DNA from: a virus
IMG/VR virus record: IMGVR_UViG_3300042502_000065
Coordinates: 1 to 25,536 of that record
Reading direction: 5' to 3' (one strand)
DNA: 25,536 bases
The position numbers and the translations under genes were made by a program. Positions 790 to 10,339 of the stretch are shown piece after piece; position 1 is the stretch's first letter, and the number at the start of each line of letters is the position of its first letter. The notes beneath the pieces were generated by a model. The model saw only the letters and a list, made by a program, of their open reading frames with translations, was not told the origin of the DNA and did not search any database.

Positions 790-1284
790 ATGGCAACTAT
801 TACTACTCTCTCAAACGCTGTTGGTGCAGGTACACAACCTAGCCGTAGTCTTCGCAACATGCCTTATGTTGTTGAAAACACTATTAGCTGGTCTGCTGCT
901 GTAACAGCTAAAGGCTCTGCCTTGGCTGCTGCTGATGTGATTGAAGCTCTCCAGATTCCCGCACAATCTATTGTGTTGGCTGCTGGCTTTGAAGTGATCA
1001 CTGCAGCTACTGGTAGCTGTACAGTTAGCTTGGGTGTTACTGGTGTTACTGCTGCTGCTTATGTCTCTGCTTTTGCAGTGACTAGCTCAGCTACTGCCGG
1101 AACCTACGCAACTCCAGCAACTGCTGCTTATCCTATTGTGTCTGGAGCTGCTGACACATTGGACTTGCTGTTGGTTACTGAAACCACTACACTGAGTGCT
1201 GGTTCAATCCGTGTCTTTGCTGTCATCGTTGACGCACAAGATCGTGTTGGTCCTGCTTCTGTAGACCGTGAGCAACTGGCCTAA
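790..1284 (+). CDS. Putative capsid decoration or minor structural protein
   Basis: This 164-residue protein is rich in Ala, Thr, Val and Ser. It has alternating beta-type patterns, no predicted membrane segment and no cysteine pair, and ends in a charged tail (DREQLA). The start is well supported: AAGGAG lies 8 bases upstream of ATG, 11 bases after the capsid stop codon. Sitting between the capsid gene and the late terminator, it would be transcribed with the coat protein and at a similar level, as expected for a head-decorating or head-completion protein. I do not recognise a specific family. It could also be a small tail or fibre-like structural protein. Confidence 0.5.
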   Translation: MATITTLSNAVGAGTQPSRSLRNMPYVVENTISWSAAVTAKGSALAAADVIEALQIPAQSIVLAAGFEVITAATGSCTVSLGVTGVTAAAYVSAFAVTSSATAGTYATPATAAYPIVSGAADTLDLLLVTETTTLSAGSIRVFAVIVDAQDRVGPASVDREQLA

Positions 1285-1299
1285 TAGCTAGTTGATGCA

Positions 1300-1331
1300 G
1301 GGAGGGGCTTAACCGCCTCTCCCTTTTATTG
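1300..1331 (+). terminator. Intrinsic terminator after the capsid genes (Tphi-like position)
   Basis: A GGGAGGGGC arm (1300-1308) pairs with GCCTCTCCC (1315-1323) to give a 9-bp stem with one G-U pair and a 6-base loop. It is followed by TTTTATTGTTT. This is a textbook rho-independent terminator for plus-strand transcription. Its place, just after the capsid genes and before the tail adaptor gene, matches Tphi of T7, which lowers tail-gene expression relative to capsid. Confidence 0.88.
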
Positions 1332-1341
1332 TTTAAAAATT

Positions 1342-2052
1342 ATGTCTACATTTATTTCTTTAACGAATGAATTGCTGCGAAGAATGGGTGAGGTTGTTTT
1401 AGACTCCACCGAATTCGCTGGAGCTAGAAACATCCAAGCTCTAGCTAAGAATGCTATCAATTCATCTATTAGAGAATTGATGCATAGTGCTCAGGAATGG
1501 CCCTTTGCTCTTACTACTTATACACAAACAATGACAGTGGGTACGGGAACATATTCCTTTCCTGCTGATTTGTCTAGTGTTGACTGGGAAAGTTTCTATC
1601 TTAAGAAACTAACAGCAGCAAACAATGATCCGGCTCGTTTACCTGTTCTTACATATGTTGACTACTTAGACAACTATCGTCCCGGTGAGGATGTGAATGG
1701 CACTGGAGGCTATGGTCCTTCTATTGCTGTTTATCAAACACAAGAGTCTAAGTTTGGTGTGACTCCCCTGCCTGATCAGGCGTATGAGGTGGAGTATAAG
1801 TATTGGTCTTTCCCTGCTGATCTGTCTCTTTCTACAGATGTCTGTATTATTCCTGATAGATTTACCAGTGTATTAATTGATGGTGCTATGTTCTACATGC
1901 TCATGTTCAGGTCTAATGAACAAGGTGCAACTTTGTATAAAGAGAAGTTTGATACAGGTATTAGAACAATGCGTAGGCTTTTGTTAGATGAGCCTTTGTA
2001 TATGCGTTCAACAATGATTGTTAAGCCTTCTTTTAGTCCAAGAGTGTTTTAA
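1342..2052 (+). CDS. Tail tubular protein A-like (tail adaptor / gatekeeper)
   Basis: This 236-residue protein is mostly helical at its N-terminus (NELLRRMGEV, then QALAKNAINSSIRELM). It is followed by a beta-rich middle with an EWPF motif and a YSFPADL segment. This layout resembles the gp11-type adaptor of T7-like podoviruses, which forms a dodecameric ring below the portal (T7 gp11 is 196 residues, so this one is slightly longer). The gene follows the capsid block and precedes a nozzle-like gene with a TAATG stop/start overlap, which fits. No Shine-Dalgarno sequence is visible before the ATG; the upstream bases are the U-tract of the terminator plus TTTAAAAATT. Initiation may therefore be weak. 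Family assignment rests on motifs and synteny. Confidence 0.6.
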   Translation: MSTFISLTNELLRRMGEVVLDSTEFAGARNIQALAKNAINSSIRELMHSAQEWPFALTTYTQTMTVGTGTYSFPADLSSVDWESFYLKKLTAANNDPARLPVLTYVDYLDNYRPGEDVNGTGGYGPSIAVYQTQESKFGVTPLPDQAYEVEYKYWSFPADLSLSTDVCIIPDRFTSVLIDGAMFYMLMFRSNEQGATLYKEKFDTGIRTMRRLLLDEPLYMRSTMIVKPSFSPRVF

Positions 2053-3608
2053 TGGCAGATAGAATTAGTGGCTTCAAGGTTACATGTATTGGTGGAATGA
2101 ACACCAATAGGGATGTACTATCTCAAGGTGAGATGTACCCCGGTTCAGGTACACAACTTATTAATTATGAGCCAGCTATTACTGGTGGGTATAGACGGAT
2201 TAGTGGATATGCTAACAGTTATGGAACTGTAACTGGCACAGGTAGTGTACTTGGTGTTATGGTTGCAGAGAGTTTAAACGATGGTATCTTTGCTTGTCGC
2301 AAACCTTCTTCTGGTACAGACTACTTTTATAGGTGGGTAAATTCTTCATCTACTTGGGTAGCAATTACAACTCCCGGAACTGTTACGATGGTGGGGGTTA
2401 AGAAGGTTAGGTTTACTAGATATAATTGGAGTGCTCCTAAGTTTGCGTTAACTGATGGAATCAATCCGGCTGCTGTGTATGATGGAACTACATATACACA
2501 GATTACGGATGCTAATGCTCCTAATAGTCCTAAGTATTCTGCAGCCTTTAAGAATCATTTGTTCTTAGCTGGTGATACAACAGACCCTTACAACTTATAT
2601 GTTTCTTCTCCTTTGGCAGAAACAAACTTCAACCCAGCTAATGGAGCTGCTGTTATTAATGTAGGATTTGAGATTGTTCAGATTAAACAGTTTAGAGATA
2701 CGCTGTACATCTTTGGTAAAAATGCAATTAAGAGTTTGACAGGCACTAACATAGCTGACTTTGTGGTGGGTGAGGTGACAACAAATTTAGGTTGTGTTGT
2801 ACCAGATAGTGTGATAGAACTGGGTGGTAATCTAGTGTTCCTTGGTCCTGATGGTTTTAGACCAGTGGCGGGAACAAATAAGATTGGTGATGTGGAATTG
2901 GAAACAATTTCAAAACAAATTCAATTTACCATTACATCAATCTTACAAGAAATTGTAGCTGGTTCTATTGATCCAGAAACATTAAGCTCTGTAGTAATTC
3001 GTAAGAAGTCACAGTTTAGATTGTTCTTACCCGCTGAGGGAGTCTTTGGTTTGTTAGGTGGTCTTAGGGCTAGCGAAGGCGGTGTTTCTTTTGAATACAG
3101 TCAGCTTTTTGGATTTACAATAACATGTGCTGCTAGTGGATACATTGGGCTTGATGAAGTTGTTATTCATGGAGATTCTACGGGTAAGGTGTATAAGCAA
3201 GAGACAGGAAGTTCTTTTAATAGTACAGAAATCTTGAGTGTTTATCAAACACCTTTCTATTATTTTCAAGATCCTTCAATTCGTAAAAACTTCTATAACA
3301 TTTCTACATTCTTGCGTAGTGAGGGATCGACTAGTATTGTGATGGGTGTGTCGTATGACTTTGATGACTCTGTTAATGTCTTCAATCCAGCCAACTATAA
3401 CATTTTAACAACTGGTGCTGCTGCTTATTACAATGAAGCCATCTATGATGCTTCAGCAATTTATGATGGTAATCCATCACCAGTAGAGAAGACAAACATT
3501 GAAGGCTCTGGGTTCTCCATTGCTTTCAAATATGTGACTAATGATACGAATGCTAGTCATACGATTCAGGGCTTGGTCTTGAATTATTCGATGAATGATA
3601 GACGCTAA
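2052..3608 (+). CDS. Tail tubular protein B-like (tail nozzle / tail tube protein)
   Basis: This 518-residue protein is almost entirely beta-strand in character. It has many short Gly/Asn/Tyr-rich turns and repeated aromatic positions, and an N-terminal motif GGMNTNRDVLSQGEM followed by GYRRISGY. Such long beta-rich proteins directly after an adaptor gene usually form the nozzle of short tails (T7 gp12, 794 residues; this one is shorter). The start codon overlaps the stop of the preceding gene (TAATG), so translation is probably coupled. The gene ends 11 bases before the tail fibre gene. Alternatives are a P22 gp10-like stabilisation protein or another tail-hub protein. The structural role is fairly safe, the exact position in the tail less so. 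Confidence 0.55.
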   Translation: MADRISGFKVTCIGGMNTNRDVLSQGEMYPGSGTQLINYEPAITGGYRRISGYANSYGTVTGTGSVLGVMVAESLNDGIFACRKPSSGTDYFYRWVNSSSTWVAITTPGTVTMVGVKKVRFTRYNWSAPKFALTDGINPAAVYDGTTYTQITDANAPNSPKYSAAFKNHLFLAGDTTDPYNLYVSSPLAETNFNPANGAAVINVGFEIVQIKQFRDTLYIFGKNAIKSLTGTNIADFVVGEVTTNLGCVVPDSVIELGGNLVFLGPDGFRPVAGTNKIGDVELETISKQIQFTITSILQEIVAGSIDPETLSSVVIRKKSQFRLFLPAEGVFGLLGGLRASEGGVSFEYSQLFGFTITCAASGYIGLDEVVIHGDSTGKVYKQETGSSFNSTEILSVYQTPFYYFQDPSIRKNFYNISTFLRSEGSTSIVMGVSYDFDDSVNVFNPANYNILTTGAAAYYNEAIYDASAIYDGNPSPVEKTNIEGSGFSIAFKYVTNDTNASHTIQGLVLNYSMNDRR

Positions 3609-3619
3609 GGGGAAACTAA

Positions 3620-6600
3620 ATGGCAGGTTATGTAAGACAGTCGGCTGCTGATATCGTCCCAACGGGCGTAGTTAGAGCTGCACCAATTAACAATGAGTAC
3701 AATGCTCTTCGTGATGCTTTTAGTGCTGCTAGTGGTCATAAGCATGATGGCACTGCTGCTGAGGGACATCCTGTTCCTGTCATTGGTGACGCTGACTTAT
3801 TGAATAAGATTGCCACTGATACCGCTAATAATCGTCATGGTGTATTTGTTGAAGTAGCTGCGGCTGCTGTGGAGCAAGTGCGCTTTCAAGATGGAGCTAT
3901 TGTTCCAGTAACAGACAATGACATTGACTTAGGTACAAACTCTCTTGAGTTTAAAGACTTATACATTGATGGCACAGCCAACATTGATAGCTTAGTTGCT
4001 GACACTGCTGACATCAATGGTGGCACTGTTGATGCTACAGCTATTGGTGGAACAACCCCCGCTGCTGGTGCTTTTACAACTCTATCGGCTTCTGGTGCGG
4101 CAACACTTTCTAGCACTTTAGCAGTTACGGGTGTTGCAACGCTTGGTAATGGTGCTGTGCTAGGAACACCAACATCAGTTACGCTTACAAATGCTACTGG
4201 TTTGCCTATCAGCACAGGAGTAAGTGGTCTTGGGACAGGTGTGGCAACCTTTTTAGCTACGCCAAGTAGTGCTAATTTAATTTCTGCTGTTACGGACGAA
4301 ACTGGAACTGGTGCGTTGGTGTTTGCCACTTCGCCAACACTGGTGACTCCAGCATTGGGAACACCTGCTTCTGGTATAGCAACCAACTTGACGGGGCTAC
4401 CAATTTCAACAGGCGTAAGTGGTTTGGGTACTGGAGTTGCTACTTTCTTAGCTACCCCCTCATCTGCTAACTTAATTTCTGCCATTACTGATGAAACAGG
4501 AACTGGTGCTTTGGTGTTTGCAACAAGCCCTACCTTAGTAACCCCTATCCTTGGAACACCAACAAGTGCAACATTGACCAATGCCACAGGTCTTCCTATT
4601 GCTACTGGTGTATCAGGTCTTGGCACAGGTGTGGCAACTTTCCTAGCAACTCCTTCAAGTGCAAACTTAATCTCTGCTGTAACAGATGAAACTGGAACAG
4701 GATCATTGGTCTTTGCGACAAGTCCAACTCTAGTAACACCTGCCCTTGGTACTCCATCTGCTTTGGTAGGAACTAACATTACAGGAACTGCGTCTGGTTT
4801 GACAGCAGGTAATGTAACCACTAACGCTAACCTTACTGGTGCTATTACTTCAGTTGGAAATGCTACATCTCTTGGTTCATTCACATCAGCTAACCTTTTG
4901 GCTGCTTTGACAGATGAAACAGGAACAGGCTCTGCAGTATTCGCCACTTCACCTACTCTTGTTACTCCTATCCTTGGAACACCCACTAGCGCAACTTTAA
5001 CTAACGCTACAGGGCTTCCAATTGCTACTGGTGTGTCAGGTCTAGGAACAGGCGTAGCAACGGCTCTAGCGGTCAATGTAGGCTCATCTGGCGCACCTTT
5101 GGTAAATGGTGGTGTGCTTGGTACTCCATCTAGCGGAACTGCTACTAACCTTACAGGCTTACCAATTTCAACAGGTGTATCTGGTTTGGGTACTGGTGTA
5201 GCTACTGCTCTAGCTGTGAACGTAGGTTCTGCTGGTGCTGCTGTTGTTAATGGCGGTGCATTAGGCACTCCCTCTGGTGGTACAGCAACCAACTTAACTG
5301 GTTTGCCTTTATCAACTGGTGTAACAGGAACACTACCTGTTGCTAATGGTGGTACAGGAACAGCAACTCCTAGCATTGTTGCAGGGACAAACGTAACTGT
5401 TACAGGAACATGGCCTAACCAAACCATTGCTTCTACAGCAGGTGGTTCTGGAACTGTAACTAGCGTTGCAGCTACAGTCCCAAGTTTGTTTAGTATTTCA
5501 GGTTCACCAATTACCACATCTGGCACATTGGCAATGACCTACTCAGGTACTGCTTTGCCAGTAGTTAATGGTGGTACTGGTCAAACATCCTACACAGATG
5601 GTCAACTGTTAATTGGTAACAGCACAGGAAACACGCTAACTAAAGCAACATTGACTGCGGGAACAAACGTAACAATTACCAATGCTGCTGGTGCAATTAC
5701 GATTGCGGCTTCTGGTGGTGGTGCTTCTGCTGCTACGCCTACTGCGCTTGGTACTGTGTATGGCAAGCAAACAGCAAGCGGTGCATCACCTTATTTAACT
5801 GCTTTTGGATACAATTCTGCCCCTTCAGCAACTGGTACATATAATTCTGCATTTGGGCAGTTATCGCTCTTTTCATTAACTTCTGGTTCGTCAAATACGG
5901 CAATAGGTGAAGAAAGTCTTTATACAGTATCAACAGGAAATGATAATGTTGCCGTTGGTGCTAGTGCTTTATATACTGCAACTGGTTCTCATAACACTGC
6001 TGTTGGCACGCAAGGTTTAGCACTTACAACTACTGGAGCAGAAAACACTGCTGTAGGTGCTTATGCAATGAGATTAAACACAACTGGAAATTATAATACT
6101 GGTATTGGACGTTATGCACTTACTGCTAACACCACAGCATCTTACAACACCGCTTTAGGATATGAATCTCTTAAAGCAAACACAACAACTTCATACAACA
6201 CCGCACTTGGTTATTCTGCGGGAACTGCCAATACAACTGGTGGAATAACTGCTGTTGGTGCGGGTGCTCTTGCGGCTAACACTACAGGATATGCCAATAC
6301 TGCCCTTGGAGGTTATGACAGCGCAACAACCATACAAGCCGCACTAAGATATAACACTACAGGAAATTTTAATGTAGCAGTTGGAACAGGTGCGCTTACT
6401 GCTAACACCATAGGTGCTAACAATACGGCCTTTGGTTATTCAGCACTTTATACAAATATTGATGGTGGTACTAATGTTGCTGTTGGAAATAGTGCGCTTG
6501 CACTTAATACTGGTGGTGGAAGTAATGTTGCCGTAGGATACCAAAGTCTTTATAATAATACTACTGCCAGTGGCAACGTAGCCGTAGGTTATCAGGCTTC

Positions 6601-7627
6601 CCAAACTATTACCACAGGGGCTAATAATGTTGCCATTGGTGTTTTCTCAGGGAAAGGCGGCACAACTGGCACTTCAAATGTTTCTATTGGTTACGAATCA
6701 CTTAAAACCAACACTACAGGAAATTACAATACAGCAATAGGTCTTGAAGCCCTTAAATCCTCTACAACTGGCGGTGGTAGCGTTGCATTAGGTGCTTATA
6801 CGCTTTTCTCTAACACTACTGTATCTGATAATATCGCCATAGGGTATGCGGCAAGTTATTATAGTGTGACAGGAGCAAGAAATACTGCTGTAGGCTATTT
6901 TTCTTTGTTTAATAATACCGCTAATGACAATACTGCTTTTGGCTATCAAGCACTTAGGGCAAATACAACTGGCACTAATAATACTGCTGTTGGACAAGGT
7001 GCGCTTTATTCTAATACTACCGCTACTTCCAATACAGGTATAGGTTCTGAAGCTGGTTATTCAATAACAACAGGCGTAGACAATGTATGTATTGGATTGT
7101 CTTCTGGAAATTATAATGTTGCTCTTACTACTGGTAGAGACAATGTAATTATTGGTACTTATTCTCACACTGCGGCTGCAGGAGATAATGCTTCAATTGT
7201 TATAGGTCGATATATTCTTGGTAAAGGTACTAATACGGGTTTTATTTCTCCGGGTGGTGGTGGCGTTTATCAAGGCAATAACTCCGCTAATTGGTCTACA
7301 ACTTCAGACAGACGTTTAAAGAAAAACATTGTTGATAACAATATTGGTTTAGAAAAACTTACGCAAATCCAAGTGCGTAACTTTGAATATCGGTTGGCAG
7401 AAGAAGTTACAGAATTACCACAAGCACAAGCTATTCAAAAGACAGGCGTTCAACTTGGTGTGATTGCTCAAGAATTGCAAGCCGTTTTGCCTGAGTGCGT
7501 AAAAACAGAATCCACAGGTATTATGTCCGTAGACTCAGATAACCTGACTTGGTACATGATAAATGCTATCAAGCAACTCAAAGCCGAGGTGGATAGCCTC
7601 AAATCTCAACTTAATCTAGGAGCTTAA
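3620..7627 (+). CDS. Tail fibre protein with repeat shaft, beta-roll repeats and S74 self-cleaving chaperone
   Basis: This 1335-residue receptor-binding fibre has four visible parts. Residues 1-150 are a probable virion-attachment head (GHKHDG, then IGDADLL). Residues ~190-575 carry TGLPISTGVSGLGTGVAT-type repeats. Residues ~600-700 are a linker with GGTGQTSYTDGQLLIGNS. Residues ~742-1196 are about 26 units of a 17-residue NTAVG...LxxNTTG repeat like those of YadA-type beta-rolls. The C-terminus is a peptidase S74 intramolecular chaperone: Ser1229-Asp-Arg-Arg-Leu-Lys1234 keeps the Ser/Lys dyad spacing known from endosialidases. It also has GVIAQELQAVLPE and a terminal coiled coil. Cleavage before Ser1229 would release about 107 residues after trimerisation. 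The start has AAGGGG 8 bases upstream. Host range would depend mainly on the beta-roll part. Confidence 0.9.
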   Translation: MAGYVRQSAADIVPTGVVRAAPINNEYNALRDAFSAASGHKHDGTAAEGHPVPVIGDADLLNKIATDTANNRHGVFVEVAAAAVEQVRFQDGAIVPVTDNDIDLGTNSLEFKDLYIDGTANIDSLVADTADINGGTVDATAIGGTTPAAGAFTTLSASGAATLSSTLAVTGVATLGNGAVLGTPTSVTLTNATGLPISTGVSGLGTGVATFLATPSSANLISAVTDETGTGALVFATSPTLVTPALGTPASGIATNLTGLPISTGVSGLGTGVATFLATPSSANLISAITDETGTGALVFATSPTLVTPILGTPTSATLTNATGLPIATGVSGLGTGVATFLATPSSANLISAVTDETGTGSLVFATSPTLVTPALGTPSALVGTNITGTASGLTAGNVTTNANLTGAITSVGNATSLGSFTSANLLAALTDETGTGSAVFATSPTLVTPILGTPTSATLTNATGLPIATGVSGLGTGVATALAVNVGSSGAPLVNGGVLGTPSSGTATNLTGLPISTGVSGLGTGVATALAVNVGSAGAAVVNGGALGTPSGGTATNLTGLPLSTGVTGTLPVANGGTGTATPSIVAGTNVTVTGTWPNQTIASTAGGSGTVTSVAATVPSLFSISGSPITTSGTLAMTYSGTALPVVNGGTGQTSYTDGQLLIGNSTGNTLTKATLTAGTNVTITNAAGAITIAASGGGASAATPTALGTVYGKQTASGASPYLTAFGYNSAPSATGTYNSAFGQLSLFSLTSGSSNTAIGEESLYTVSTGNDNVAVGASALYTATGSHNTAVGTQGLALTTTGAENTAVGAYAMRLNTTGNYNTGIGRYALTANTTASYNTALGYESLKANTTTSYNTALGYSAGTANTTGGITAVGAGALAANTTGYANTALGGYDSATTIQAALRYNTTGNFNVAVGTGALTANTIGANNTAFGYSALYTNIDGGTNVAVGNSALALNTGGGSNVAVGYQSLYNNTTASGNVAVGYQASQTITTGANNVAIGVFSGKGGTTGTSNVSIGYESLKTNTTGNYNTAIGLEALKSSTTGGGSVALGAYTLFSNTTVSDNIAIGYAASYYSVTGARNTAVGYFSLFNNTANDNTAFGYQALRANTTGTNNTAVGQGALYSNTTATSNTGIGSEAGYSITTGVDNVCIGLSSGNYNVALTTGRDNVIIGTYSHTAAAGDNASIVIGRYILGKGTNTGFISPGGGGVYQGNNSANWSTTSDRRLKKNIVDNNIGLEKLTQIQVRNFEYRLAEEVTELPQAQAIQKTGVQLGVIAQELQAVLPECVKTESTGIMSVDSDNLTWYMINAIKQLKAEVDSLKSQLNLGA
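4188..5340 (+). repeat. Diverged tandem repeats in the tail fibre shaft
   Basis: Five near-identical copies of the peptide TGLPI(S/A)TGVSGLGTGVAT occur in this stretch. Four copies of TDETGTG(A/S)xVFATSPTLVTP occur with them, with degenerate units at the end. Units are about 48-75 residues long. The DNA copies differ at most third positions although the protein copies are almost the same. Confidence 0.85.
5842..7206 (+). repeat. About 26 copies of a 17-residue beta-roll repeat in the tail fibre
   Basis: The repeat core is N-(T/V)-(A/G/S)-(V/I/L/F)-G, spaced about 17 residues apart, with a second conserved turn of the type NTTG between cores. I count 25-27 cores. Spacing is mostly regular with a few insertions, for example near 6310-6360. 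Similar Hep/Hag or YadA-head repeats form left-handed beta-rolls in trimeric adhesins. Confidence 0.8.
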
Positions 7628-7841: not shown

Positions 7842-8069
7842 ATGCAAGACGAAGTAACCCATTCTCAAATCTATGAACGTCTATTAGCTGTTGAAGCTAA
7901 GGTGGACCAACTAGATAAGAACACACAAACTGTGGTTGCTGCTTTCAATGCAGCCGCTGGTGCATTCGTTGTGCTTGAATGGCTTGCTAGGGCAGTGAAG
8001 CCTGTCTTAATTATTGGTGCTTTCTGTGGAGCCATTTGGCTTGCGATAGAAAATAAACTACATCAATAA
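7842..8069 (+). CDS. Small one-TM membrane protein of the lysis region
   Basis: This 75-residue protein has an N-terminal helical, heptad-like part (residues 8-30), a hydrophobic amphipathic stretch (33-48) and a clear membrane helix (about 53-69, VLIIGAFCGAIWLAI), with a short charged end. The gene lies 2 bases after its neighbour, without a strong ribosome binding site, and its stop overlaps the next ATG (TAATG), so translation is probably coupled. Its place among membrane proteins upstream of a holin and an endolysin suggests a lysis role, such as a holin partner or antiholin. That is inference from context. The family is not recognised. Confidence 0.65.
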   Translation: MQDEVTHSQIYERLLAVEAKVDQLDKNTQTVVAAFNAAAGAFVVLEWLARAVKPVLIIGAFCGAIWLAIENKLHQ

Positions 8070-8359
8070 TGAAATGGGTGATAGCTGCACTGTTGATAGT
8101 GAGCTTACTTGTTTCAGCAGCAGAGGACAAGTGTAGTGTTCGACAGTTTTATGGTATAGCTTACACCATTCATAATCCTACAGAACGTCATCAACAAATG
8201 TCTGCGTGGCTAACTAACCATGAAGGCTTTTGTTCTAGCAAAGACATGGTTGTTATTTGGAACAACCTGTCTGAATGGGCAGGAGCAGCAGATAGTGCAG
8301 AACTAAGACACAAAGTTGTTCGTGCTTATAAGAAGGCAATTGAAAGGGAAAAGAAATGA
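8069..8359 (+). CDS. Secreted small protein with N-terminal signal peptide
   Basis: The 96-residue product starts with a typical Sec signal (Lys2, hydrophobic core to about residue 16, then SAA before Glu19), so about 78 residues would be periplasmic. The mature part has two cysteines (Cys22 and Cys55) that could form a disulfide, and a basic helical C-terminus. There is no lipobox directly before Cys22 (residues EDK), so it is not an obvious spanin lipoprotein. The start overlaps the upstream stop (TAATG), and its stop overlaps the start of a 27-residue ORF (ATGA). The location suggests a part in lysis or envelope modification. No family is recognised. Confidence 0.6.
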   Translation: MKWVIAALLIVSLLVSAAEDKCSVRQFYGIAYTIHNPTERHQQMSAWLTNHEGFCSSKDMVVIWNNLSEWAGAADSAELRHKVVRAYKKAIEREKK

Positions 8360-8439
8360 CTGATGTATTACTTCTTCTTCTTTGGTTAGCAGTACCTTTG
8401 AATTATATCTACTGGATATTAATTAGAAATGATAGATAA
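8356..8439 (+). CDS. 27-residue hydrophobic peptide (single membrane helix)
   Basis: An ATG overlapping the upstream TGA (ATGA) opens a 27-codon frame ending in TAA at 8437-8439. Residues 4-23 are almost entirely Leu, Val, Ile, Trp and Tyr with one Pro, followed by a polar RNDR end: a single membrane helix with a cytoplasmic tail. The frame fills the gap between two larger genes and overlaps the next start by 11 bases. The coupled start and the membrane-helix pattern argue for a real gene, perhaps a holin modulator. It is too short for firm proof. Confidence 0.45.
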   Translation: MTDVLLLLLWLAVPLNYIYWILIRNDR

Positions 8440-8665
8440 GATCCGTCTATTCCCTATGGTGGATGCTACTGGTTATCCAGATAAGACTGATGCCACTGAA
8501 AGAAGAATTGAAAAGTATCAAGAAGAATACAGAGCAGTACTTAAAGCTAACAAAGTAGAACGAAAGATAGAAGAACTATTGCTAGAGCTTTATAACAAAA
8601 GAGCTGAGCAACAGAAACTCAGACTTGAGATATTTACAGATCGTAAACTAGATGTATATGTATAA
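8429..8665 (+). CDS. Small charged helical protein of unknown function
   Basis: This is a 78-residue protein with no membrane segment. Residues 22-70 form a highly charged, probably coiled-coil helix (RRIEKYQEEYRAVLKANK, then KIEELLLELYNKR), and the end is LDVYV. The gene overlaps the 27-residue peptide frame by 11 bases and ends 2 bases before the next start. It could form a cytoplasmic complex with one of the neighbouring membrane proteins. No motif identifies it. Confidence 0.6.
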   Translation: MIDKIRLFPMVDATGYPDKTDATERRIEKYQEEYRAVLKANKVERKIEELLLELYNKRAEQQKLRLEIFTDRKLDVYV

Positions 8666-8667
8666 AT

Positions 8668-9405
8668 ATGGTTACTAAAAAAACACCTGTTAAGACACCA
8701 GCAAAGGTAGCTCCTGTTAAAAGCAGGACACCTAAGCCTAAGACAGAACAAACAATTAATGTATCTGTTGCTGCACCTGTTGCAAAAACAGAAACCAAGA
8801 AAGACGATAGTACACTTGGTAAAATCATTGGTTTGATTGAGTGGGTAGATAATCCATTTAAACTGTTTACAGTTATTCTCCTAGCATTTCTTGCATTTGC
8901 TGGGTATTTTGCTTGGGATTCTAGGCAAGTTATTCTCCAAGCAATTACAAATCAAGACAAGATGCCTCAGCTTGTTAAGCAAGAGGAGTTGATTGTTCCT
9001 GCTCGTAGCTTACTTAAAGATGTAGATGGGCTTGTTCTTTTGGTCCATAAGGCTAACTTATCTACGAATAGCAGAACCACTGTGCTTGCTCTTAATGCTG
9101 ATGGCTCAAGAGAAAAGACAATGGAGGGAACAGTAACCTCCCTCTTTAATGCAAGCGCAGATAGAAACGCTGCTATGGTGGCTATGCTAAACAATGAAAT
9201 CTTGTGTGAGGAATTTAATCCATCATCTAAAGTTGGTGAATGGGGTGCAAAGCAGGGTGTTAAGTTTATGTGTAGAGGCTCTATACCGCCAGACATGGGT
9301 AAATTTGCGGGATATGTAGCCATTGGGTTTAAGGAAAAGCCAGAGGACATTGCGGCATTAAAGACCCGTATAAACTTGGCAGCAACTGACATGTCAGAGG
9401 AGTAA
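8668..9405 (+). CDS. Membrane-anchored protein with Lys/Pro/Thr-rich N-terminal tail
   Basis: The first 45 residues of this 245-residue protein are low complexity (TKKTPVKTPAKVAPVK and similar) and very basic. A charged linker and one membrane helix follow (about residues 65-83, KLFTVILLAFLAFAGYFAW), then a folded C-terminal domain of about 160 residues. By the positive-inside rule the basic tail would be cytoplasmic and the C-terminal domain periplasmic. The latter has two cysteines (in ILCEEF and FMCRGS) that could pair there. The start lies 2 bases after the upstream stop with no clear ribosome binding site. The type II anchor between lysis genes suggests an envelope function, possibly spanin-like or superinfection-related. 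The family is not recognised. Confidence 0.6.
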   Translation: MVTKKTPVKTPAKVAPVKSRTPKPKTEQTINVSVAAPVAKTETKKDDSTLGKIIGLIEWVDNPFKLFTVILLAFLAFAGYFAWDSRQVILQAITNQDKMPQLVKQEELIVPARSLLKDVDGLVLLVHKANLSTNSRTTVLALNADGSREKTMEGTVTSLFNASADRNAAMVAMLNNEILCEEFNPSSKVGEWGAKQGVKFMCRGSIPPDMGKFAGYVAIGFKEKPEDIAALKTRINLAATDMSEE

Positions 9406-9407
9406 TT

Positions 9408-9902
9408 ATGTTAGATATTCTTAGTGGTGGTTTATTAGGCAGCATCTTTGGTGGTATCTTTAGGATGGCCCCTGAAGTATTGAAGTGGCTAGACAAGAAG
9501 AATGAACGCAGTCATGAGCTTAACATGTTTAAGTTTCAATGCGATTTAGAGCAACAAAGAGGCGCACAGAAACTCGCAGAAATAGGCGCACAAAGAGAAG
9601 CGGCTGTAGACGTAGGTGTCATGGGAGCCTTTCAATCAGCCATTGAACAGCAAGCAACGATGGTTAAAGCTGCTGGTGGATGGGTCGCATCTTTATCCGC
9701 ATCTGTCAGGCCAGTTGTTACCTACTGGGTGCTGTTTGTTTGGAGCTTTATCCATGTGTGGTTTGCATGGAATGCATGGCTTGCAGGTGCTCCAGCCGTT
9801 GAAGTGTTTAAGACTATGATGACACCTGACTTCTCAGCTCTGTTATCAGGAACAATAAACTATTGGTTCCTTGATCGTACATTGTCCAAGCGTGGATTAT
9901 GA
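9408..9902 (+). CDS. Holin, 3-TM (GTA-holin-like) type
   Basis: This 164-residue protein has a Gly-rich hydrophobic N-terminus (residues 1-19, SGGLLGSIFGGIF), a charged middle helix, and then the arrangement typical of the three-TM holin family. That arrangement is an RP motif (Arg101-Pro102) directly before a membrane helix (about 103-122), a loop, and a third helix (about 140-156) with a WFLDRTLSKRG end. Such holins make the inner-membrane hole through which the endolysin escapes. GAGGAG lies upstream of the ATG. The stop overlaps the endolysin start (ATGA), giving a classical holin-endolysin pair. The family call is from the motif pattern. Confidence 0.65.
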   Translation: MLDILSGGLLGSIFGGIFRMAPEVLKWLDKKNERSHELNMFKFQCDLEQQRGAQKLAEIGAQREAAVDVGVMGAFQSAIEQQATMVKAAGGWVASLSASVRPVVTYWVLFVWSFIHVWFAWNAWLAGAPAVEVFKTMMTPDFSALLSGTINYWFLDRTLSKRGL

Positions 9903-10339
9903 ACTTAGATATTGCAGCAGAACTCTGCAAGAAGTTTGAGGGCTTCAGAAGCAAGCCCTACCTATGTCCTGCCAACGTAGCCACTATTGGCTTTGGCAGT
10001 ACATATTATGGTGATGGACGTAAGGTGGTATTAACTGACCCACCCATGAGCGAGAAAGAAGCTCATGACTTATTAATGATTGAACTGCACCATACATATC
10101 TTCCCGGTGCTCTTAGGCTTTGTCCTAACTTAGCAGCACATGAGAAAAGATTGAATGCAATTGTAGACTTTTGTTACAATCTTGGTGTGGGAAGACTACA
10201 GTCTTCTACCCTAAGACGCAAGGTGGTAGCAGAAGATTGGGAAGGAGCTAAAGAAGAGCTTCTCAAATGGAACAAAGGCGGGGGCAGAGTGTTGGCTGGT
10301 CTTGATAAAAGACGCAGAGCTGAATGTGCCTTAATGTAG
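9899..10339 (+). CDS. Endolysin, GH24 T4-lysozyme-like muramidase
   Basis: This 146-residue enzyme would cleave the beta-1,4 bond between N-acetylmuramic acid and N-acetylglucosamine in peptidoglycan. The catalytic triad spacing Glu-8-(Asp/Cys)-5-Thr of the family is exact: Glu14 (in KFEG), Cys23 and Thr29 (in VATIGFGST). The usual Asp is a Cys here, a known variant. Downstream helices include LNAIVDFCYNLGVGRL, the conserved core segment, and a C-terminal LAGLDKRRRAE. The length is close to that of T4 lysozyme (164). There is no signal or SAR anchor, so it needs the holin encoded just upstream. The start is fixed by the ATGA overlap. Confidence 0.88.
   Translation: MNLDIAAELCKKFEGFRSKPYLCPANVATIGFGSTYYGDGRKVVLTDPPMSEKEAHDLLMIELHHTYLPGALRLCPNLAAHEKRLNAIVDFCYNLGVGRLQSSTLRRKVVAEDWEGAKEELLKWNKGGGRVLAGLDKRRRAECALM

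Follow-up and report, generated by a model that had tools for sequence, protein, structure and literature searches.

The window, by which we mean the whole 25,536-base stretch of a virus record analysed here, contains a tail fibre gene that adjoins the major capsid protein gene and tail genes. Loci compared with the window are labelled L plus a number, and codon similarity is expressed as an index that is 0 for random codon choice and 1 for identical codons. The fibre gene and its parts are as follows:

3620-7627, + strand: tail fibre gene of 1335 amino acids (aa), one uninterrupted open reading frame, with a C-terminal Peptidase_S74 domain and matches to PHROG tail and virion structural families
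3620-4083, + strand: anchor at the N-terminus, which came with the phage backbone, as indicated by DNA and amino acid matches to the relatives L036 and L162
4196-4390, + strand: module 0, 65 aa, copy 1; close DNA relative not found
4391-4585, + strand: module 1, 65 aa, copy 2; nearest index 0.45, in L042
4586-4780, + strand: module 2, 65 aa, copy 3; nearest index 0.34, in L014
4781-5008, + strand: module 3, 76 aa, lineage C1, lacking the core; 67 of 75 codons as in L017
5009-5152, + strand: module 4, 48 aa, lineage B1, copy 4; 47 of 48 codons as in L017
5153-5296, + strand: module 5, 48 aa, lineage B2, copy 5; 47 of 48 codons as in L017
5297-5359, + strand: degenerate last core TGLPLSTGVTGTLPVANGGTG, where the array ends
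7304-7504, + strand: Peptidase_S74 intramolecular chaperone domain (aa 1229-1295), a Pfam match (PF13884) in a tip that resembles L027 (80% aa) and L012 (74% aa)

The Peptidase_S74 match scored 46.5 bits against a cut-off of 22 (4.5e-12), so that the protein belongs to the S74 tail fibres by its C-terminal domain. The repeat array extends from 4196 to about 5359 and consists of three modules of 65 aa, one of 76 aa and two of 48 aa, followed by the degenerate core. The core TGLPI(S/A)TGVSGLGTGVAT opens the three 65-aa and the two 48-aa modules, with starts at 4196, 4391, 4586, 5009 and 5153 (aa 193, 258, 323, 464 and 512), and its sixth position is S in three copies and A in two. The first-pass annotation had described these cores and quoted three codings of GLGTG, which we located at 4226, 4421 and 5039. 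Its cores are present, but the repeats begin at about 4196 instead of 4188, and the 18-aa core that it took for the repeat unit is part of a larger true unit, the module of 48, 65 or 76 aa. The array alone gave no significant match in Pfam and matched family 6002 in PHROG (1.2e-12). In a PDB sequence search of the fibre the array was unmatched, the matches (6f45, 7dc3) being confined to the distal and S74 region, and the module query had no match in the plasmid collection. Structure prediction of aa 323-580 reached a mean pLDDT of 31, too low for the model to be of use. The array probably forms a shaft or spacer.

The distal half of the fibre is occupied by a second family of short repeats (5840-7190) with a spacing of about 51 nucleotides (17 aa, like NTTGSNNTAVGY), which is less conserved than the array modules. 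A 546-aa open reading frame (3886-5526, - strand) runs antisense to the array. Tyr, His and Gln do not occur in aa 193-580 of the fibre, and this frame is open because the array lacks these residues, whose codons could yield stops there. Antisense frames of at least 300 aa were present in 61 of 168 viral fibre genes. In GenBank record MW202701.1 (L162), the deposited 'ribonuclease E' (5298-6569, - strand) lies antisense to the fibre array (fibre frame 4963-7116); it is probably a shadow frame and a misannotation.

The DNA divergence between the copies in the window is at the level of random codon choice, neither more nor less. As the first-pass annotation had noted, the five cores are nearly identical in protein and differ in their codons: the same codon was used in 62 of 174 comparisons of identical residues, and a different one in 112. 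Random choice predicts 62.2 identical codons from the codon usage of the fibre gene and 61.2 from that of the other genes in the window. Codon sharing was uneven, with 11 of 18 codons shared by the cores at aa 258 and 512, 10 of 18 by those at aa 323 and 464, 9 of 17 by those at aa 193 and 323, and 3 to 7 by the remaining seven pairs. This unevenness, above all in the first of these pairs, may reflect patchy exchange within the array long ago. Whole modules gave a similar picture. The three pairs of 65-aa modules shared 19 or 20 of 55-58 codons (20.5-21.3 expected), while modules 4 and 5 shared 14 of 42 (15.3 expected). Shuffling the gene synonymously 5000 times gave 144.8 ± 10.4 identical codons across 13 in-register pairs, where we counted 142, and a longest exact match between copies of 16.6 ± 3.2 nucleotides, where we found 17.

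The first-pass annotation had named synonymous distances no larger than the amino acid changes predict as the observation that would speak against its reading. Instead, pS ranged from 0.68 to 0.75 between module pairs of the window fibre and pN from 0.09 to 0.17, the latter being inflated by Ser AGY/TCN steps. The window modules thus have dS far above dN, as in birth-and-death repeats under purifying selection. Because synonymous sites are saturated and the peptide has hardly altered, the copies are old and have been under purifying selection.

Comparison with related fibres, as the annotation had proposed, covered the window and the best 80 of at least 584 IMG/VR relatives (81 fibre genes). 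The relatives behaved like the window: the median within-gene codon index was 0.02 in the 78 of 81 genes with enough comparisons. Saturated copies are therefore typical of the fibre family and not peculiar to the window. Cutting up the 81 fibres yielded 242 modules, each 48, 65 or 76 aa long. Within genes, module pairs had a median index of 0.017 and only 1 of 80 exceeded 0.3, whereas 24.6% of the 11302 between-gene pairs did so. The nearest module had a median index of 0.03 within the own gene versus 0.71 in another gene (81 genes), the reverse of concerted evolution, in which copies in the same gene are closer than copies of different genes. Modules 3-5 of the window likewise had closer relatives in another phage (L017) than in their own gene, with orthologous copies closer than paralogous ones; for modules 0-2 we found no clear or close orthologue among the loci compared.

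Modules were assigned to lineages by clustering at an index cut-off of 0.25, which we chose ourselves and on which the labels depend. Defined in this way, the arrays of the 81 genes are ordered strings of DNA-distinct lineages, for example A1 C1 B1 or A1 A2 C1 A3. We found 43 layouts, and one lineage was present twice in only three of the 81 arrays. The order of co-occurring lineages was kept in 98 of 99 pairs, both orders being seen in the remaining one. In 28 comparisons, two arrays were set apart by one or two whole modules flanked by conserved neighbours, and the extra module never belonged to a lineage already present in its array. In a tree of the 48-aa modules, the B2 copies of the window, L005, L010-L013 and L017 grouped apart from the B1 copies that these phages carry, with a support of 0.93 (0.97 at the B2 node that excludes L005), and B2 of L021 fell slightly outside the B2 group. 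Modules 3-5 occur together and in the same order in L017, L010-L013 and L005. The nearest relatives in other genes, the lineage order and the split between B1 and B2 together imply that the duplications predate the split of the fibres carrying them. Old duplication under strong purifying selection, one of two readings offered by the first-pass annotation, is thus borne out for modules 3-5, whose orthologues in other phages are far closer than the in-gene copies. For the first three copies it is saturation that supports their age, and they are presumably as old as the others.

Different parts of the fibre gene have different relatives. In DNA, window positions 1210-4083 matched L036 (72%) and 1253-4067 matched L162 (73%). 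The N-terminus of the fibre was 78% identical in amino acids to L036 and L162 over 143 and 165 residues, the capsid, Hc3-like and anchor proteins were 76-80% identical, and the capsid, tail and fibre N-terminal sequences together spanned 67-80%. The array and the middle of the fibre matched L017 instead (83-85% aa; 92% of DNA over 4680-5706), and the tip matched L027 and L012. The capsid, Hc3-like, tail and anchor proteins of the window were unmatched in 9.6 kb of L017, a stretch that may not reach its capsid gene, and the capsid, tail and anchor proteins found nothing better than 26-28% in L012 and L027. Genes 3' of the fibre (8069-10339) matched L006 (67-89%). Judged from these matches, the window fibre is a chimera of the backbone and anchor of one phage group with the array and tip of another. 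Since the match to L036 and L162 ends at 4083 and 4067 and that to L017 covers 4680-5706, the two parts are joined somewhere between anchor and early array. Recombination at the first modules or immediately upstream of them is the probable route of exchange.

Related modules also occur in bacterial and archaeal genome records, where we found 133 relatives and kept 76 loci. Viral sequences were selected for their resemblance to four phage queries, three of them fibre arrays and one a fibre including its anchor. A filter of at least four module hallmarks was passed by 301 of 332 sequences (the window and 331 loci), that is, by 247 of 250 viral sequences, 49 of 76 from genome records and 5 of 6 from the phage collection. 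Once near copies had been taken out, an internal pair was scorable in 134 of 163 viral genes and in 30 of 49 genome-record genes. A pair above index 0.5 was present in 8 of these 134 viral genes versus 13 of the 30 genome-record genes (Fisher, 1.6e-6), and a pair above 0.7 in one versus ten. The difference from viruses held for metagenome-assembled genomes (MAGs) alone (9 of 23; Fisher, 7.6e-5) and for isolates alone (4 of 7; Fisher, 9.5e-4), the two being told apart by record titles. Among small genes, a pair above 0.5 was found in 3 of 99 viral versus 5 of 12 genome-record genes. The phage collection had two genes with internal repeats, neither of which exceeded 0.5.

The duplicated stretches that we inspected in genome-record genes belong to the fibre module family. 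A scan of the neighbourhood of 20 of the 30 genome-record loci placed five amid clear phage genes (L085, L089, L091, L096, L113), of which L089 and L096 hold a pair above 0.5. Some other loci had neighbour genes of a surface type, namely an outer-membrane barrel and laminin G (L133), F5/8 (L134), CBM96 (L129) and PA14 (L086), which points to modules common to phage fibres and cell-surface proteins. Records of Flavobacteriia and Patescibacteria encode the modules within proteins of very large size (L086, L121, L133, L134, L094). Within this sample, viral and genome-record genes do differ, yet the line between viruses and cells is not a clean one. Loss of identical copies in phages is possible.

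We consider it likely that the copies go back to ancient duplications and are paralogous modules of a fibre shaft, that selection has kept their protein while their synonymous sites have drifted to randomness, and that they form ordered lineages on a distal fibre that is exchanged between phages. Selection would preserve the protein of each module, and synonymous sites would drift until codon choice between copies is random. Every module would then be a separate DNA lineage, inherited in a fixed order along the fibre and gained or lost as a whole, and modules would spread among unrelated phages when the distal fibre, array and tip together, is swapped onto another N-terminal anchor. Counting against this explanation are modules 0-2, which have no clear orthologue, the uneven codon sharing between the cores, a codon identity above random in the wider viral sample, the dependence of the lineage labels on our cut-off, and the eight of 134 viral genes with a pair above 0.5.

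The interpretation of the first-pass annotation is partly supported as a whole. Its other reading was that codons are actively pushed apart to block recombination. The visible codon difference is what speaks for it, with 7 of 10 core pairs sharing at most 7 of 17-18 codons. However, codon identity in the window equals the random expectation, and in 484 viral repeat pairs it lies above it (9000 of 22189 codons identical versus 7494.8 expected), which also implies that not all viral copies are fully saturated. A z below -2 was found in four of the 484 pairs, where about 11 are expected by chance, and a z above 2 in 90. Near and far copies were alike (84 genes; near copies more similar in 41), so that divergence does not depend on the distance between copies. 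With identity at the random level and not below it, both in the window shuffles and in the viral pairs, we rejected selection for divergence as the cause and regard it as highly improbable. It is also unlikely that the copies were collected singly from a pool of fibre modules in other phages instead of being duplicated in place. The chimeric fibre and the differing affinities of modules 0-2 and 3-5 would suit such a pool, but the joint occurrence of modules 3-5 and the conserved lineage order fit inheritance as a block better.

In a weaker form of the divergence reading, new duplicates may arise frequently and, when identical and in tandem, be quickly deleted by recombination in phage genomes, so that only different DNA lineages persist. 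The rarity of recent-type pairs in viral relative to genome-record genes agrees with this, as does the rarity of doubled lineages despite 43 layouts. However, two of the five genome-record loci amid phage genes hold such pairs, near viral copies are no more diverged than far ones, age and fixed order by themselves also yield few same-lineage duplicates, and resemblance to particular phage fibres decided which viral genes were sampled. Such loss has a fair-sized but minority chance of being at work, and it supplements ancient paralogy under purifying selection rather than replacing it. Short-read assemblies could mimic it by collapsing or breaking at identical repeats, leaving only divergent arrays in viral contigs. 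Metagenome contigs supply almost all of the viral loci, any silent merging of identical tandem modules would go unnoticed, and the phage-collection check comprises two genes. Yet MAG contigs keep near-identical long repeats of the same modules (e.g., L129, L123, L098, L134), and contig ends are not enriched in arrays, with 0.09, 0.14 and 0.34 breaks per 1000 aa in three viral sets versus 0.19, 0.34 and 0.40 outside. Moreover, an artefact would leave the saturation of the copies that are present unexplained, and we consider it improbable. A bolder generalization, which we offer tentatively and think rather doubtful, is that phage genomes purge same-lineage modules, that a long repetitive shaft survives only as DNA-distinct lineages, one of each in fixed order, and that cell-surface proteins tolerate fresh duplicates. 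If true, nature would reach the codon scrambling that engineers apply to repetitive genes.

Under the preferred explanation, ancient modules with conserved protein, repeat arrays of phage fibres can be read as a genealogy: each module has its own DNA lineage, making gain, loss and the exchange of shaft and tip traceable. The contrast with genome-record proteins bearing the same modules offers a testable case for repeat instability limiting phage genes. Our literature searches, including those with module peptides, found no paper describing such a pattern in phage fibres.

Polyubiquitin genes reportedly evolve by birth-and-death under purifying selection, a view attributed to Nei and co-workers in 2000. 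They resemble the window fibre in being tandemly repeated, conserved in protein and rich in synonymous differences. Plasmodium polyubiquitin differs: according to one study, it shows concerted evolution, with repeats of the same locus closer to each other (PMC10457151), whereas copies within one fibre gene resemble each other no more than random codon choice predicts and have closer orthologues in other phages. According to Persi, Wolf and Koonin 2016, each position of protein repeats is conserved vertically and most change is by birth and death, as in the fibre modules, but divergence between copies of one protein is accelerated (PMC5120217), unlike in the fibre, whose copies remain nearly identical in protein. 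Other fibres with a C-terminal Peptidase_S74 intramolecular chaperone are, like the window fibre, modular, with host-recognition parts swapped between unrelated phages (compare PMC10579305), and differ from the window's array of 48-, 65- and 76-aa modules, which has no significant Pfam match. The same module family occurs in a cultured phage, Pseudomonas phage PfAn1 isolated from Lake Baikal, whose fibre gene (XRX11813) follows head and tail genes. This fibre is 61% identical in amino acids to the window fibre over 142 array residues, the other window proteins compared were unmatched, and unlike the window fibre it has no internal repeat pair passing the filter. Set against these systems, the window shows protein repeats that are born and lost in the ordinary way while purifying selection acts on them, to which the fibres add an ordered lineage structure.
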